The position numbers were made by a program, and so were the translations under genes. The notes under the pieces are model-generated. The model saw only the letters and a list, made by a program, of their open reading frames with translations, was not told the origin of the DNA and searched no databases. Shown here piece by piece: positions 10,034 to 58,399 of a DNA stretch of 64,000 nt (positions are counted from its first letter, which is position 1; each line of letters starts with the position of its first letter). This DNA comes from Blattabacterium clevelandi. GTDB taxonomy: Bacteria; Bacteroidota; Bacteroidia; Flavobacteriales; Blattabacteriaceae. Location of the stretch: positions 372,001-436,000 of the forward strand of contig NZ_CP029844.1 in NCBI RefSeq assembly GCF_003268615.1, given 5' to 3'.

Positions 10034-11506
10034 TTATCTATTATCATTTTTTAATAACGTTTTAGCAATTTTCATATCGTTAAAAGGGTAACGTATTCCT
10101 TTAATTTCTTGATAATTTTCGTGTCCTTTTCCTGCTAGAACAATAATATCTTTTTTTTTTGCTAATTGAATAGCTTTTTTAATAGCTTCTTTTCGATTAA
10201 CAATTGTCAAAATATACTTTTTCTTCTTGAAATATGATCTAAACTTTTTCATATCGATTAATATTTTTTTTGGATCTTCTTCCCTAGGATTATCTGATGT
10301 AAAAATTGATCTATCACATAGATCATAGACAATTTTTCCCATTAATGAACGTTTTTTTTTATCTCTATTTCCTCCACAACCTATTACGCAAATTAACTTT
10401 TCCTCTTTTTTTTTTATTTTTTTAATGGTATTTAAAACCGTTTTTAATCCATTTGGATTATGAGCGTAATCAACAATGATACGAATTCCAGAATAGGATA
10501 GAAATTGTTCAAAACGACCTTTTATAGGTTTTATAGTCTTTATTTTTTTTAATATTTCATATTTTTTTTTCCCCAATAATATAGCTGTAGCGTAACTAGC
10601 CAATAAATTGTAAATATTAAATTTTCCAATTAAACCGATAAAAAACTTATTTTTATCAATTAATAATTCATTACCATTGATGTTTTCTTTTAAAATTTTA
10701 ATTTTAAAATCTGCTTTTTTTTTTACTCCGTAAAAATAGATTTTAGCCAAAACATTTTTTATGATTTTATGTGAATTTTTGTCATCAACATTAATTAATG
10801 CAAAAGTATTTTTATGCAAAAAATTTTCAAAAAAAAATCTTTTAGTTGATAGATAATTATCAAAAGATTTATGGTAATCTAAATGATCATGTGTAATATT
10901 AGTAAATATTCCTCCTGTAAATAATAATCCTGTAATTCTTTTTTGATGAATTCCATGTGAACTTACTTCCATAAATGCATATTTACATCCTTTTTGAATC
11001 GATATATTTAAATATTTATTTATTTCAATAATATTGGGAGTTGTATGTAAAGTAGGAATTTTTTTAGACATAATTTTAATACCCATAGTAGAAATAAGTA
11101 TATTTTTTTCTCCCATTTTATAAAATAAACAATGAAGTATTGTAGCCACGGAGGTTTTTCCATTTGTCCCCGTAATGCCTACCAATTTTATTTTTTTAGT
11201 AGGATTATCATAAAAATTAGAAGAAATAGTTCCTAAAGCTTCTATTGAATCTTTGACGAGTACATAGGTAATAGATTTATGTATGAAAAAAGGTTTTTTT
11301 TCGCAAACTATGATATTTGCTCCATTTTGGATAGCTTCTATAATAAACAAATGACCATCTGTACTTCTTCCTTTATGAGCTACAAAAATCCTATTTTTTT
11401 TTACCATTTTAGAATGTATAGAAATCCCTTCTATCCATTTTTTAGAATCTCCTATGATTTTTAATATATTCACTTTTATTAAAATATCCATTAGTAGTTT
11501 TTTCAT
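10034..11506 (-). CDS. murE: UDP-MurNAc-tripeptide synthetase MurE (meso-DAP type)
   Basis: Adds the third stem-peptide residue. ATP-binding TGTNGKTSVATIL starts at residue 112 and the central motif TNITHDHLDYH is near 202. The C-terminal specificity motif DNPR is at 405-408, which in this family marks meso-diaminopimelate rather than lysine as substrate; that agrees with dapF in the same window. Length 490 is normal. The ATG overlaps the ftsI stop by 4 bases (ATGA), so coupling is likely. Confidence 0.96.
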   Translation of the reverse strand: MKKLLMDILIKVNILKIIGDSKKWIEGISIHSKMVKKNRIFVAHKGRSTDGHLFIIEAIQNGANIIVCEKKPFFIHKSITYVLVKDSIEALGTISSNFYDNPTKKIKLVGITGTNGKTSVATILHCLFYKMGEKNILISTMGIKIMSKKIPTLHTTPNIIEINKYLNISIQKGCKYAFMEVSSHGIHQKRITGLLFTGGIFTNITHDHLDYHKSFDNYLSTKRFFFENFLHKNTFALINVDDKNSHKIIKNVLAKIYFYGVKKKADFKIKILKENINGNELLIDKNKFFIGLIGKFNIYNLLASYATAILLGKKKYEILKKIKTIKPIKGRFEQFLSYSGIRIIVDYAHNPNGLKTVLNTIKKIKKKEEKLICVIGCGGNRDKKKRSLMGKIVYDLCDRSIFTSDNPREEDPKKILIDMKKFRSYFKKKKYILTIVNRKEAIKKAIQLAKKKDIIVLAGKGHENYQEIKGIRYPFNDMKIAKTLLKNDNR

Positions 11507-13491
11507 TCTTCTAATTTCAGAAATATAACTTTATTTTTTTTCAATTTATTTCCTGGTTTTACAGACTGAAAAAAAACTTTTCCTATCCCTTTATATTGTA
11601 TCTTTATCCCTCTATTTTCTAATAGAGGGATAATTTCTTTTCCAGGAAAAGAAATTATATTAGGCATAATACCTTGATCAAGGTAATAGATTAACGAATA
11701 ATTTTTGGATTCTTTAATTTTTTTTATAAAATTAATATCTACTTTATTATTTTTGTTAAGATACTTTTTTCCAATTTTTGGATAAATTGATCTAGCTATT
11801 TTATCAAATACGGGGACAGCTACTTCTATTCCGTAATATCCTTTTTCTGGTTTTGAAATAACTACAATACAAGAATATTTTGGATTTTTTGCAGGAAAAT
11901 ATCCTACAAAAGAACTATTGTAAGATAAAGGTTTCCCTTTTATCCAATAATCTAATTGTGTGGTCCCAGTTTTTCCTGCATAAGGATATTCTGGATGATA
12001 ATATTTTTTAGCTGTTCCATTTTTTACCACTCCTTCTAGCATATTTTGAATTTTTTTTATAGATTCTTTTGATGCGATAGAAGGATTCATTACAATAGGG
12101 GTAGTATATTTTTTAATACTTTTTCCATAAAATTTAATATCTCTAATAAAAATAGGTTTAATCATAATCCCTTTATTAGCAATAGAATTATAAAAAGTTA
12201 GAATTTGCAAAGGGGTTAGTTTCAAGTTATATCCGAAAGTTAGCCATGGTAATGTAATACTACTCCAATTTTCTCCACCCGGTTTTGGAATGAAAGGGTG
12301 ACTTTCACCTGGAATATCTATTCCTATTTTTTTATCTAATTTCCATTTTCTAAAATGTTCTATGAATTGTTTCGGATTTTCTTTGTAATTTTCATAAATA
12401 ATTTTGGCGATTCCTATATTTGAAGAATATTCCAAAATTTGTTTTAGATTCATTTTTCTATATCCACTGTAATGACTATCTCGTATTTTTTTTCCTCTTA
12501 ATTTCATAACACCATCTTTAATATTAACAATCATATCCATTTCTATTTTTTTATCTTCTAAAGCAGCAAGAATAGACATAGTCTTGAAAGTAGATCCAGG
12601 TTCACTACATTCCCATACAGAAAAATTTCTTAAATCTTCATAAACATTTTTTTTTGTTTTTTCTAAATTAATCATAGCACTAATTTCACCACTTTTTACC
12701 TTCATAAGGATCACACATCCATGATCAGCATTAGAAATGGTTAGTTCATGAAGTAAAGCATTATAAGCAATATCTTGTAAAGATATATCTATAGTAGAAT
12801 AAACGTCTTTTCCGTCTTCTGGATCAATTTCATTCCCTGAATTTAATGGTTTCCAGATATTAGAACTAATACGTTGTTCTAATCGTTTTCCATTTTTTCC
12901 TTTAAGATACTTACTAAAAGCTCCTTCTAACCCTGCTTTACCCCTATGATCATCGTATCCTAAAGTTCTTTTTCCTATACTTTCTAATGTATGTACTCTG
13001 AAATTTTTCTTTTCTACAATAAAACCTCCTCGTATTTTTCCTTTGTTAAAAATTGGAAAATTTCGTAATATTTTGAAATGTGGATAATCTAAATTTTTTA
13101 CTAATAAAAAATATCTATTTCCCTTTTTTTTTTCGTATTGAAATTTTTTATAAAAAAAATTTCTTGGTTTTTTAAACAAAGATTCTAAAGAATTACACAA
13201 AAAGAAAATATTTTCTTTAAATAATTTTTCTGATATAGATCTAAAATCAATATGAATATCATATCTTATGATAGACATGGCTAAAATACTGCTATCTGAT
13301 GCATAAATATTTCCACGTTTTGCCTTAATTAAATTAGTTCTAATTGTTCTTTCTATAAAAGACTTTTTATATTGATCTGAACAATTCTGAATGTAGAATA
13401 AATTAAAAATAATCAGGGATGCAATAAAAAGAAATAAAAAACCAATTAAGTAAGATTTATACAATAAAATATACCTTTTTCGTTTCATCAT
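11503..13491 (-). CDS. ftsI: Septal peptidoglycan transpeptidase FtsI (PBP3)
   Basis: Class B penicillin-binding protein that crosslinks septal peptidoglycan. One membrane anchor is at residues 13-32, followed by the dimerisation domain with LKAKRGNIYASD-like sequence near 55-65. The transpeptidase domain has all three motifs: STFK at 300-303, SSN at 356-358 and KTGT at 507-510. A single C-terminal PASTA-like domain covers about 605-660 (MPNIISFPGKE, SVKPGNKLKKNKVI). Length 662 is usual for flavobacterial versions. It overlaps ftsL upstream by 4 bases (ATGA). Confidence 0.95.
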   Translation of the reverse strand: MMKRKRYILLYKSYLIGFLFLFIASLIIFNLFYIQNCSDQYKKSFIERTIRTNLIKAKRGNIYASDSSILAMSIIRYDIHIDFRSISEKLFKENIFFLCNSLESLFKKPRNFFYKKFQYEKKKGNRYFLLVKNLDYPHFKILRNFPIFNKGKIRGGFIVEKKNFRVHTLESIGKRTLGYDDHRGKAGLEGAFSKYLKGKNGKRLEQRISSNIWKPLNSGNEIDPEDGKDVYSTIDISLQDIAYNALLHELTISNADHGCVILMKVKSGEISAMINLEKTKKNVYEDLRNFSVWECSEPGSTFKTMSILAALEDKKIEMDMIVNIKDGVMKLRGKKIRDSHYSGYRKMNLKQILEYSSNIGIAKIIYENYKENPKQFIEHFRKWKLDKKIGIDIPGESHPFIPKPGGENWSSITLPWLTFGYNLKLTPLQILTFYNSIANKGIMIKPIFIRDIKFYGKSIKKYTTPIVMNPSIASKESIKKIQNMLEGVVKNGTAKKYYHPEYPYAGKTGTTQLDYWIKGKPLSYNSSFVGYFPAKNPKYSCIVVISKPEKGYYGIEVAVPVFDKIARSIYPKIGKKYLNKNNKVDINFIKKIKESKNYSLIYYLDQGIMPNIISFPGKEIIPLLENRGIKIQYKGIGKVFFQSVKPGNKLKKNKVIFLKLEE

Positions 13492-44690: not shown

Positions 44691-44800
44691 GAAAATATAA
44701 AATTTATAATAGTATATTTGTTTATTAAATTAAATTAATTAATAATTAATATATATAATCCATAGATAGCATAGATAGAATTCAAATATATTAGAATTCA

Positions 44801-44873
44801 GACCTGATAGCTCAGCTGGCAGAGCATTACACTTTTAATGTAAGGGTCCTGGGTTCGAATCCCAGTCAGGTCA
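44801..44873 (+). tRNA. tRNA-Lys (anticodon TTT)
   Basis: A 73-base cloverleaf: acceptor GACCTGA with TCAGGTC, and D arm GCTC/GAGC. The anticodon stem is TTACA/TGTAA with loop CTTTTAA, giving anticodon TTT. The T arm is CTGGG-TTCGAAT-CCCAG and the discriminator is A. CCA is not encoded. It is on the plus strand between aroK and xthA, both on the minus strand. Confidence 0.97.
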
Positions 44874-44886
44874 TTTCATTCATCAT

Positions 44887-45654
44887 TTATATTTCAATTT
44901 CTAATACAGTTGGACAATGATCCGAATATTTTATTTCAGGTAATAAATATGCATTTATCATTTTTTTTTTTAAAAAAGTGCTAACCATTATATAATCAAT
45001 TCTCCAACCTTTATTATTTTTTTTTGAATTATAACGATAACTCCACCAACTATAATGTTTAGATTCTTTAACATATCTTCTAAAACTATCTATAAATCCT
45101 AAATTTAAAAAATCACTCATCCATTTTCTTTCTTTTGGCAAAAATCCGGAATTTTCATGGTTTTTTATAGGATCATAAATATCTATTTTTTTATGACAAA
45201 TATTGTAATCTCCACAAATAATAAGATTTGTGAATTTTTTTTTCATTTTTTCTATATAATAAATGAAATTATCCATAAAATAAAATTTAAAATTTAATCT
45301 ATTTTTCATATCTATTCCTGAGGGAAGATAAAGATTAATCACGGATATTTTTTTTAAATCTATTCGTAATATTCTTCCTTCTTGATCGATAGTATCGATT
45401 CCAATTCCATATTCTATATGATTTGGTTTTTTTTTACATAAAATACCTACTCCACTATATCCTTTTCTTTTTATTGAAGGATACCAATAATGGTAATATC
45501 CCAAATTATCAAATATACTGGTATCTATTTGTTCCGGAAAAGCTTTTATTTCTTGAAAACATAAAATATCTGGTTGATTTATTTTAATCCAATTGGATAA
45601 CCCTTTATTGATTCCAGATCTAATTCCATTAATATTATAACTAATAATTTTCAT
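44887..45654 (-). CDS. xthA: Exodeoxyribonuclease III / AP endonuclease
   Basis: Base-excision repair nuclease of the endonuclease/exonuclease/phosphatase fold. ATG at 45654 gives MKIISYNINGIRSGINKG, the exact family opening; the longer frame from 45690 adds 12 unlikely residues. Catalytic motifs are ILCFQEIKAFPEQID, LIICGDYNICHKKIDIYDP, WRIDYIMVS and the final KYSDHCPTVLEIEI. Length 255 is normal. It is divergent from the his operon. Its retention is notable because reduced genomes often lose repair genes. Confidence 0.95.
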   Translation of the reverse strand: MKIISYNINGIRSGINKGLSNWIKINQPDILCFQEIKAFPEQIDTSIFDNLGYYHYWYPSIKRKGYSGVGILCKKKPNHIEYGIGIDTIDQEGRILRIDLKKISVINLYLPSGIDMKNRLNFKFYFMDNFIYYIEKMKKKFTNLIICGDYNICHKKIDIYDPIKNHENSGFLPKERKWMSDFLNLGFIDSFRRYVKESKHYSWWSYRYNSKKNNKGWRIDYIMVSTFLKKKMINAYLLPEIKYSDHCPTVLEIEI

Positions 45655-45768
45655 ATTCCATAAAAAAAATTTTTTATTAAAAATAATCATTCAATTTATA
45701 ATAATTATTAAATAATGAATAAAAAAAATAGTGGTCGAAAAGGTTAAAGAATATTCAAAATAGTTTTT

Positions 45769-45776
45769 TATATTTG
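45769..45776 (+). promoter_or_regulatory. Candidate -7 element of the his operon promoter
   Basis: TATATTTG matches the Bacteroidetes -7 consensus TAnnTTTG. No exact TTG lies 19 bases upstream (TTA occurs at 45744-45746, with 22-base spacing). If used, the transcript would start near 45783 and the hisG leader would be about 86 bases, containing the hairpin at 45811-45840. Confidence 0.4.
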
Positions 45777-45810
45777 CTCATTAAATCTAGAGATAAAGAT
45801 AAAAATTACT

Positions 45811-45840
45811 GTAAAAGCTTACTATATTGTAAGCTTTTAC
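45811..45840 (+). promoter_or_regulatory. Perfect 12-bp hairpin in the hisG leader
   Basis: GTAAAAGCTTAC, a 6-base loop (TATATT), then GTAAGCTTTTAC: a perfect inverted repeat ending 28 bases before the hisG ATG. No gene ends upstream on this strand (xthA is divergent), so it is not an ordinary gene terminator. It could be a leader RNA structure controlling the his operon or a DNA operator. No run of T follows closely and no His-rich leader peptide is seen, so classical attenuation is not supported. Confidence 0.6.
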
Positions 45841-45868
45841 TATTAAATATATTATTCCTTCCTATATA

Positions 45869-46726
45869 ATGGATAAACTTAAAATAGCTATTCAAAAATC
45901 AGGGCGTCTTTATGACGACTCCATCAAGTTACTTAAAGATTGTAGTATAGAGGTTAATATTGGAATAGATAAATTAAAAACAACAGCTCTTAATTTTCCA
46001 CTAGAAATACTTTTTCTACGTGATGATGATATTCCTCAATATTTAGAAGATGGAGTAGCTGATATAGGAATTGTTGGAAAAAATGTTCTTTTGGAAAAAA
46101 GAAAAAAAATAAAAATAAAAGAAACTTTAGGATTTGGAAAATGCCGTCTTGCTATTGCAATTCCTAAATCTTTGGTTTATAAAAAAATAAATGATTTAAA
46201 TGGGAAAAGAATCGCTACAAGTTATCCATTTTTGGTTAGAGAATTTTTCGAAAAAAAATATATAAAAGCAGAAATTCACGAAATTTCTGGAGCTGTAGAA
46301 ATTGCACCTGGAATAGGATTAGCAGATTGTATTTGTGATTTGGTAAGTAGTGGATCTACACTTTTTATGAATGGATTAAAAGAAGTAGAAACAATTCTTC
46401 AATCTGAAGCTGTTTTAGCATCTAATCTGCATTTAGGAGAACCACAAAATATCATAATGGAAAAATTGTTATTTCGGATTCGATCTGTAAAAAAAGCTAA
46501 AAATCATAAATATATTCTTTTAAATGTCTCTAATGAACACTTAGAAAAAATAATATCTCATCTTCCAGGAATTAAAAGTCCAGTTATTCTTCCATTAGCA
46601 AATTCAAAATGCAGTTCTGTACATTCTGTAGTCAATGAAAATGATTTTTGGGGGATTATAGAAAATTTAAAAGAACTTGGTGCACAAGATATATTAGTTC
46701 TTCCAATAGAAAAAATTATACTTTAA
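45869..46726 (+). CDS. hisG: ATP phosphoribosyltransferase, long form
   Basis: First and committed step of histidine synthesis, normally feedback-inhibited by histidine. KLKIAIQKSGRLYDDS opens the protein. DGVADIGIVGKNVL near residue 70 and GIGLADCICDLVSSGSTL near 150 bind the substrates. From about residue 205 there is a C-terminal ACT-like regulatory domain (SVVNENDFWGIIENLKELGAQDILVLPIEK), which marks the long, self-sufficient form. Length 285. It is the first gene of the operon, 6 bases before hisD. Confidence 0.97.
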   Translation: MDKLKIAIQKSGRLYDDSIKLLKDCSIEVNIGIDKLKTTALNFPLEILFLRDDDIPQYLEDGVADIGIVGKNVLLEKRKKIKIKETLGFGKCRLAIAIPKSLVYKKINDLNGKRIATSYPFLVREFFEKKYIKAEIHEISGAVEIAPGIGLADCICDLVSSGSTLFMNGLKEVETILQSEAVLASNLHLGEPQNIIMEKLLFRIRSVKKAKNHKYILLNVSNEHLEKIISHLPGIKSPVILPLANSKCSSVHSVVNENDFWGIIENLKELGAQDILVLPIEKIIL

Positions 46727-46732
46727 TATAAT

Positions 46733-48025
46733 ATGAATATTCAAGTTTATATGCATCCTTCATTCAATACGTGGAAATATCTTATAAAAAGACCTATTAA
46801 AGATATTTCCATATTAATTGATTCAGTGACTCCTATTATAAATAATGTAAAAAAATATGGAGATTTAGCCTTAAAAACCTATACAAAAAAATATGATAAT
46901 TTTAATCTAAAATATATTCAAGTAACGGAAGAAGATATTAATAAAGCAAATATAAAAATTTCAAATTGTTTGAAAAAATCTATTGAAATAGCATATAAAA
47001 ACATAAAATTTTTTCATCAAAAACAAATCCATGAAGAATCTAAAATTGAGGTATTACCAGGAATTCTTTGTTGGAGAAAATCTGTTCCTATAGAAAAAGT
47101 AGGTTTTTATATACCTGGAGGATCCGCTCCTTTATTATCTACTGTATTAATGTTAGGAATTCCAGGTAAATTAGCAGGATGCAAAAATATAATTTTATGT
47201 TCACCTCCAAATAAAAATGGAGAAATACATCCATCTATTTTATACACAGCTAAATATATAGGGATTACACAAATATATAAAATAGGAGGAGCTCAAGCAA
47301 TAGCTGCCATGGCATATGGGACAGAAAGTATCCCATCAGTTTATAAAATATTTGGACCAGGTAATTCTTATGTAACAATAGCTAAACAAATTGTATCCCA
47401 AAAGGGAATTGTGTCTATTGACATACCTGCAGGTCCTTCAGAAATTGTTATATTAGCAGATAATACAGCTAATCCAGAATATGTAGCTTCCGATTTACTT
47501 TCTCAATCAGAACATGATATGGAAAGTTATATTATTTTAGTTACTATAAATGAATCTTGGTGGATAGAAAAAGTAAAAAGTGAATTAAAAAAACAATTAA
47601 TTAATCTATCCTATAGACAAAATATTATGAAAAAGGCTTTGGAAAAAAGCAAAATTATTGTTTTTGATTCTTTGGAAGAAGGGATAAACTTAATTAATGA
47701 AATTGCTCCAGAACATCTTATTATTAATTGTAATAATGCTTCTTATTGGAGTAACAAAATAAAAAATGCTGGGTCTATTTTTATAGGAAATTATTCTCCA
47801 ATAAGTATTGGGGATTATGCTTCTGGTCCCAATCATGTACTTCCTACATATGGTTATGCTAAATCTTATAGTGGAGTATCTGTAGATAGTTTTATTAAAA
47901 AAATCACTTTTCAAAAAATTTCCAAAAAAGGATTACGAAATTTATCAAAATGTGTTGATTTATTGTCTTCTGAAGAAGGATTAATAGCACATAAAAAATC
48001 GATTAATATTAGATTAAAAAAATGA
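46733..48025 (+). CDS. hisD: Histidinol dehydrogenase
   Basis: Last two oxidations of histidine synthesis. GFYIPGGSAPLLSTVLML near residue 123 and PSVYKIFGPGNSYVTIAKQ are conserved. Zinc ligands and catalytic residues lie in SQSEHDMESYI, IAPEHLI and ASGPNHVLPTYGYAKSYSG. Length 430 is normal. Its stop overlaps the hisC start by 4 bases. Confidence 0.97.
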   Translation: MNIQVYMHPSFNTWKYLIKRPIKDISILIDSVTPIINNVKKYGDLALKTYTKKYDNFNLKYIQVTEEDINKANIKISNCLKKSIEIAYKNIKFFHQKQIHEESKIEVLPGILCWRKSVPIEKVGFYIPGGSAPLLSTVLMLGIPGKLAGCKNIILCSPPNKNGEIHPSILYTAKYIGITQIYKIGGAQAIAAMAYGTESIPSVYKIFGPGNSYVTIAKQIVSQKGIVSIDIPAGPSEIVILADNTANPEYVASDLLSQSEHDMESYIILVTINESWWIEKVKSELKKQLINLSYRQNIMKKALEKSKIIVFDSLEEGINLINEIAPEHLIINCNNASYWSNKIKNAGSIFIGNYSPISIGDYASGPNHVLPTYGYAKSYSGVSVDSFIKKITFQKISKKGLRNLSKCVDLLSSEEGLIAHKKSINIRLKK

Positions 48026-58364: not shown

Positions 58365-58399
58365 AACGGAAAAGGAATCAAATAGATTCCTTTTCCGTT
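58365..58399 (-). terminator. Perfect 15-bp hairpin terminator after the lipoprotein gene
   Basis: AACGGAAAAGGAATC, a 5-base loop, then GATTCCTTTTCCGTT form a perfect stem nine bases after the stop of the lipoprotein gene. On the minus strand it is followed by GTTCTTTTTT, so it fits an intrinsic terminator that insulates pdhB downstream. It is the strongest hairpin in the window. Confidence 0.8.

Follow-up and report, generated by a model that had tools for sequence, protein, structure and literature searches.

The histidine operon leader of gammaproteobacteria is represented by hisL of E. coli and Salmonella, and attenuation in proteobacteria was reportedly the subject of work by Vitreschak and colleagues in 2004. 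The complete form of leader that precedes hisG in other Bacteroidia appears to share the logic of hisL. For Flavobacterium psychrophilum, the available portion of the text places the promoter box at -12 to -5 and describes clues to attenuation before amino-acid operons, together with a conserved element 5' of hisG that matches no Rfam family (PMC9723704). In Buchnera, the available sections of two papers describe the loss of leader sequences or leader-peptide regions and of attenuation (PMC3091783, PMC3229713). A Bacteroidota his attenuator is not mentioned in the available sections of PMC4833913, PMC2864571, PMC8305728 and PMC7366714, and the hisG element appears in no title or abstract opening found for Blattabacterium transcription, regulation or attenuation. 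Beyond the papers cited here, nothing was found on his attenuators in Bacteroidetes or Flavobacteria, as judged partly from listings in which subscription papers are under-covered. Rfam searches returned no histidine-leader match in positions 44700-46800 of the DNA studied here (E up to 1) or at 13 loci (E up to 0.1), and nothing above the gathering score in the former interval except tRNA; a Phe_leader match (22.6 bits, gathering 55, E 0.85) was taken as chance.

The hairpin considered here lies upstream of hisG in the window, a stretch of 64,000 nucleotides from the cockroach symbiont Blattabacterium clevelandi. An earlier note on this DNA had described a perfect 12-bp inverted repeat with a 6-base loop between a TAnnTTTG-type box and the hisG start, and both the coordinates and the placement were correct, the two arms being exact reverse complements (Table 1). 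The 64-kb window contains six perfect inverted repeats with arms of 12 bp or more and loops of 3-10, above the 0-1 (mean 0.5) found in 10 dinucleotide shuffles and thus above chance. Elsewhere in the window, two overlapping perfect 13-bp inverted repeats lie within 55 bases (11604-11658), inside a protein-coding ORF at 11503-13491 on the minus strand. The hisG leader folds at -19.8 kcal/mol (z -2.9; equally good folds in 3 of 200 shuffles), with the 12-bp hairpin as its main element. Upstream of the hairpin, the nearest plus-strand gene found is tRNA-Lys (44801-44873), and xthA lies on the strand opposite to hisG. The note had seen neither a T-tract nor a histidine-rich leader peptide before hisG, and both absences were borne out: at 45841-45863, just after the stem, no plus-strand run exceeds two T, and the interval from box to hisG contains no ATG and only one TTG start, followed by an immediate stop. 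A plus-strand terminator scan (T-rich tail with at least 5 T in 8, close to the stem) did not list the hairpin.

Table 1. Features of the hisG leader in the window (positions within the 64,000-nucleotide stretch).
Feature	Position	Strand	Basis
-7 promoter box TATATTTG, Bacteroidota TAnnTTTG type	45769-45776	+	Sequence and genus comparison
Expected transcript start	near 45781	+	Inferred from box position
CATTAA, probable remnant of a Met-His-stop leader ORF, start codon missing	45779-45784	+	Alignment by eye
5' arm GTAAAAGCTTAC of the probable relic terminator hairpin, with the inherited core GCTTAC (45817-45822)	45811-45822	+	Sequence, genus comparison
Hairpin loop TATATT; 4-15 nt in relatives	45823-45828	+	Sequence, genus comparison
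3' arm GTAAGCTTTTAC of the probable relic terminator hairpin, with the inherited core GTAAGC (45829-45834)	45829-45840	+	Sequence, genus comparison
Site at which relatives have the T-tract (often TTATTTTTTCC); interrupted in the window, TATTAAATATATTATTCCTTCCT	45841-45863	+	Sequence
hisG (ATG at 45869), then further his genes	45869-46726	+	Search

The hisG leaders of 49 Blattabacterium genomes were compared, every genome searched carrying hisG. A stem matching that of the window lies between the box and hisG in 48 of them and is absent only from leader L014 (genome G043). The exact core pattern, AAGCTTAC-N(2-20)-GTAAGCTT, is found in 45/49 genomes as a single site, located in the hisG leader; those without it are G008, G029 and G038, whose stems are altered, and G043. 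Each of the inner ten stem positions is paired in 45 to 48 of the 48 genomes, while the lower positions vary by lineage. Parsimony on a hisG DNA tree assigns seven and two changes to the arms (ten columns each), compared with a median of 27 (5th percentile 9, minimum 2) for 10-column windows of hisG. The box reads TATATTTG in 46 genomes and TATCTTTG in three, with three changes in total over its eight columns; it lies 22 to 132 nt from the hairpin, and a second TAnnTTTG between hairpin and hisG was found in none of the 48 genomes. The proposal of a leader structure preserved before the his operon therefore stands at the level of the genus, and the promoter box upstream of it is conserved as well.

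In most of the genus the hairpin resembles an intrinsic terminator, since a T-rich tract (at least 6 T in any 8-nt stretch within 16 nt 3' of the 10-bp core stem) follows it in 45/48 genomes; a run of at least four T is present in 40/48. Only the window strain (L001) and its two closest relatives (L002 and L003) have fewer than six T in every such stretch. The conservation of the arms indicates constraint and is no proof of regulation, because an unrelated terminator of the genus is also conserved in sequence. This ordinary terminator lies on the minus strand of the window (58365-58399), where a T-tract accompanies its 15-bp hairpin. Its arms, AACGGAAAAG and CTTTTCCGTT, are both preserved exactly at 20 of 30 genus loci, and their inner seven bases at 24 of 30.

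The hisG leaders of other Bacteroidia, meaning all those outside Blattabacterium irrespective of lifestyle, were examined in three sets: leaders from 50 of the 58 other Flavobacteriales genomes with a HisG match, 74 named loci, mostly from Chitinophaga and relatives, and a class sample of 29 leaders. Family genomes near G069 had a HisG match in only 7 of 60 cases, and so added little to the sample. A short leader ORF rich in histidine (at least 3 His in 7 codons) is present in all 50 Flavobacteriales leaders, in 72/74 named leaders as against 1/68 background stretches, and in 26/29 class leaders. A hairpin with a T-tract precedes hisG in 47/50, 72/74 and 25/29 leaders, respectively, the background having been counted for the ORF only. 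By their anatomy, from which the mechanism is deduced, these leaders appear to be His-leader-peptide attenuators. The Chitinophaga-type terminator reads like GGGGCTTACC-N4-GGTAAGCCCC-TTTTTT, and a GGTARGC segment complementary to its 5' arm lies upstream of that arm in 69 of 72 Chitinophaga-group leaders; the shorter GTARGC was found there in only 6 of the 15 class leaders having the GCTTAC core. Where a box is present, the leader ATG follows it at a distance of 4-12 nt in 46/59 named and 14/20 class leaders; in Blattabacterium the distance is 5 nt. Most named leaders thus have an ATG at this spacing, consistent with a shared origin with the Blattabacterium leader; among other Flavobacteriales, an ATG within 8 nt of the box was found in only 4/39 leaders.

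The core GCTTAC...GTRRGC, counted in these sets, none of which was picked for it, occurs in 68/74 named and 11/29 class leaders and in only 1/50 leaders of other Flavobacteriales, most of which carry a CCCGTTTGA- or CCGTCTGA-like terminator instead. These counts make the Blattabacterium core one of a Chitinophaga-like type that differs from the commonest type of its own order. Given its single occurrence among the other Flavobacteriales, descent of the exact core requires that either an older type was retained or the operon was transferred. The window's HisG shares up to 70% identity with members of the class, Chitinophaga among them, but at most 61% with the other Flavobacteriales found, a pattern for which transfer of the whole operon from relatives of Chitinophaga was considered. 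Long branches meet in the HisG tree, which does not separate inheritance from transfer.

Changes that preserve pairing were sought in an alignment of 39 hairpins. Its rows from outside Blattabacterium had been picked for the core, so that invariance of the core is no evidence here and the lower-stem columns alone are informative. Lower pairs that are A-U in Blattabacterium are G-C in many other Bacteroidia: at column pair 7-29, 20 distinct rows have A-U and 18 have G-C, and at pair 6-30 there are 26 rows with A-U and 10 with G-C. Changes on both sides occur at 5 of 10 pairs and in 34 cells, compared with 10.7 cells in shuffles and 13 when the structure is slid by +1, although much of this double change amounts to one A-U versus G-C difference between Blattabacterium and the rest. 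The covariation score of 0.271 is, however, close to the 0.241 obtained at slide +1, and the further pair types are matched by 47/500 shuffles. The comparison of related genomes proposed in the earlier note thus showed arms conserved throughout the genus, and a lower stem changed on both sides once other Bacteroidia were included; the outcome for the arms that the note had named as refuting its reading did not occur. With the position between box and hisG (48/49 genomes), the shared core and these two-sided changes, descent of the hairpin from the terminator of a Bacteroidia his attenuator is well supported, as a matter of homology and not of function.

The hairpin is very probably the terminator stem of an ancestral transcription attenuator that preceded hisG and sensed histidine through a leader peptide, and whose sensor has decayed. 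In the complete ancestral form, as reconstructed from sequence alone, a ribosome would stall on the His codons of the short leader ORF, the upstream GGTARGC segment would then pair with the GCTTACC arm, no terminator would form and the operon would be read. With ample His-tRNA, the GCTTACC/GGTAAGCC hairpin followed by the U-tract would form and transcription would stop. In Blattabacterium, the leader ORF would have shrunk to Met-His-stop or vanished and the antiterminator segment would have been lost, while the terminator stem was kept under strong constraint as its lower G-C pairs presumably changed to A-U. In most of the genus, the hairpin and U-rich tract would then act as an unregulated or barely regulated partial terminator setting his expression; we infer both this termination efficiency and the present lack of regulation. 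In the window's clade, where the U-tract is broken up as well, a passive stem would be left. The earlier note had taken the missing His peptide and T-tract as arguments against classical attenuation; this fits the present genome, but the relatives indicate descent from an attenuator.

Similarity to the his attenuators of other Bacteroidia extends to the position between promoter and hisG, the terminator-like hairpin with, in many lineages, the GCTTAC...GTAAGC core, the ATG close to the box, and the His codon that many strains keep in what is left of the ORF. Blattabacterium differs in having neither a His run nor an antiterminator motif, and in the window strain the start codon and T-tract are missing too, so that of the classical parts it retains the hairpin and has no His-run ORF, T-tract or antiterminator segment. 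None of the 49 Blattabacterium leaders contains an ORF with a run of His codons, the highest number in any 7 codons being two in 3 leaders, one in 26 and zero in 20, and the window leader has no ATG ORF at all. GTARGC was found upstream of the hairpin in 0/48 Blattabacterium leaders and the shorter GTARG in 2/48. Base-pair-probability counts of antiterminators above 0.4 (27/47; Blattabacterium 6/48; 41/72) were discarded, as shuffled leaders scored equally or higher; in the pairing-probability test, the fractions above 0.4 were 0.12, 0.43 and 0.53 in observed leaders versus 0.23, 0.74 and 0.59 in shuffled ones. Counting instead the leaders that exceed their own 95th percentile (20 shuffles) gave 3/48 in Blattabacterium and 12/47 and 24/70 in the others, a rough measure that goes in the expected direction. 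Blattabacterium thus appears to have lost the sensing part of the ancestral his attenuator, the antiterminator segment and the His run being gone throughout the genus.

Remains of the leader ORF can still be recognised next to the box. An ATG lies within 8 nt of it in 27/49 genomes and is followed by CAT in 21 of these 27, compared with 36 of 2,094 ATGs in the window (1.7%); the exact Met-His-stop ORF, ATGCATTAA, occurs within 8 nt of the box in 18/49 genomes. When aligned by eye, the window reads CT------CATTAA where the Blattabacterium leader L004 reads CTGTAATGCATTAA. These observations could also be explained by a minimal working attenuator, in which a near-leaderless two-codon ORF, ATG-CAT-TAA, whose first base would lie only one or two positions from the inferred transcript start, senses His-tRNA, and the position of the ribosome decides whether the nearby terminator forms. 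The T-rich tract that follows most stems and the two His codons within seven in the ORFs of three genomes agree with such a device, which would be smaller than any attenuator known to us. However, the first 14 nt after the box show 8.3 changes per column, against 6.4 at hisG third positions (an ungapped comparison that may inflate the count); being conserved no better than third codon positions, these bases are read as remains and not as a working sensor. Moreover, the exact ORF is missing from 31/49 genomes, the window included, none of the 48 leaders has the antiterminator motif, the distance from box to hairpin varies severalfold, and the 21 ATG-CAT cases come from related strains and are not independent events. 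A minimal working attenuator is hence considered unlikely, and it is somewhat more doubtful still that many Blattabacterium strains, being symbionts with few regulators, sense histidine today through a near-leaderless Met-His-stop ORF and a sequence-constrained terminator with no classical antiterminator.

Decay of the ancestral terminator appears to have gone furthest around the window strain. Leaders L001, L002, L003 and L014 form one clade (support 100/98 in the hisG DNA tree), all four members of which have lost the ATG next to the box, leaving CTCATTAA or CTCATCAA. The T-tract is broken in L001, L002 and L003, and the hairpin itself has gone from L014. The three surviving stems have identical 10-nt core arms, yet against third codon positions this invariance is not significant (p = 0.079), and selection on the arms within the clade was not accepted. 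The suggestion of a preserved control point in the window strain is consequently weakly supported, given a clade without the ATG or T-tract, the sister genome G043 without a hairpin and the non-significant invariance of the arms among the three closest genomes. The hairpin of the window strain is probably a decaying terminator rather than an active control point and, with its U-tract broken up, it probably no longer terminates; it would persist as a passive stem of the 5'-UTR.

That the window stem persists without a T-tract, and would sit near the 5' end of the transcript, would also be expected of a 5'-UTR hairpin that protects the mRNA or affects translation and has no terminator ancestry. 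This reading is very unlikely, as it leaves unexplained both the T-rich tract of 45/48 genomes and the core and position shared with attenuator-like terminators, but a protective or translation-related role may be a present-day function of the stem in the window's clade. A minus-strand terminator that would keep antisense transcription from the his operon out of xthA was likewise considered, because the scan listed the window hairpin as terminator-like on that strand, where AGTAATTTTT comes after it; most relatives, however, keep a plus-strand T-rich tract and the comparable hairpins of other Bacteroidia point towards hisG, which makes this reading highly improbable, while action of the hairpin in both directions is conceivable. 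An operator for a DNA-binding regulator with palindromic AAGCTTAC half-sites, an option raised in the earlier note, would suit the strong sequence conservation of both arms but was rejected as scarcely credible, given a spacer that varies from 4 to 15 nt between strains, at odds with an operator of fixed spacing, one exact site per genome (45/49) and only at hisG, and a T-tract and relatives' leaders that fit a terminator.

The hisG hairpin is thus probably a relic of a known kind of leader-peptide attenuation, with no demonstrated control point in the window strain. If this is right, Blattabacterium holds a stepwise record of the decay of leader-peptide attenuation in a nutritional symbiont, the His run and antiterminator having been lost genus-wide, then the start codon and T-tract in one clade, and then the stem in one member of that clade. 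The amino-acid operons of Buchnera, likewise a reduced nutritional symbiont, are also without leader-peptide regulation, but there leader sequences or leader-peptide regions are reported to be lost, whereas Blattabacterium has kept the terminator half. On the same premise, the terminator would still be under selection in most strains, half of the device surviving in 48/49 genomes, in contrast to the reported absence of attenuation in Buchnera. It thereby becomes testable whether frozen terminators serve symbionts as fixed throttles on the supply of amino acids.

Hairpins were also observed before other amino-acid genes of the genus. Eight of 11 trpE leaders from Blattabacterium strains other than that of the window (L274, L275, L276, L277, L278, L280, L281 and L283) contain a terminator-like hairpin of the form GGCTTGTC...GACRGCC followed by at least five T; the short ATG ORFs in these eight leaders encode no Trp, and the arrangement is possibly a relic trp attenuator. 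At five of 10 ilvD loci (L261, L265, L266, L267 and L268), the leader contains a CCCTAYT...RGTAGGG-type hairpin with T after it, and no ATG ORF closes within these five leaders. In a search of 13 genus genomes, ilvD-family matches were found in all except the window genome (G000) and G041. The chorismate-binding family matched once in each of these two and twice in each of the other 11, which suggests that some members of the window's clade have lost amino-acid pathways while retaining his.
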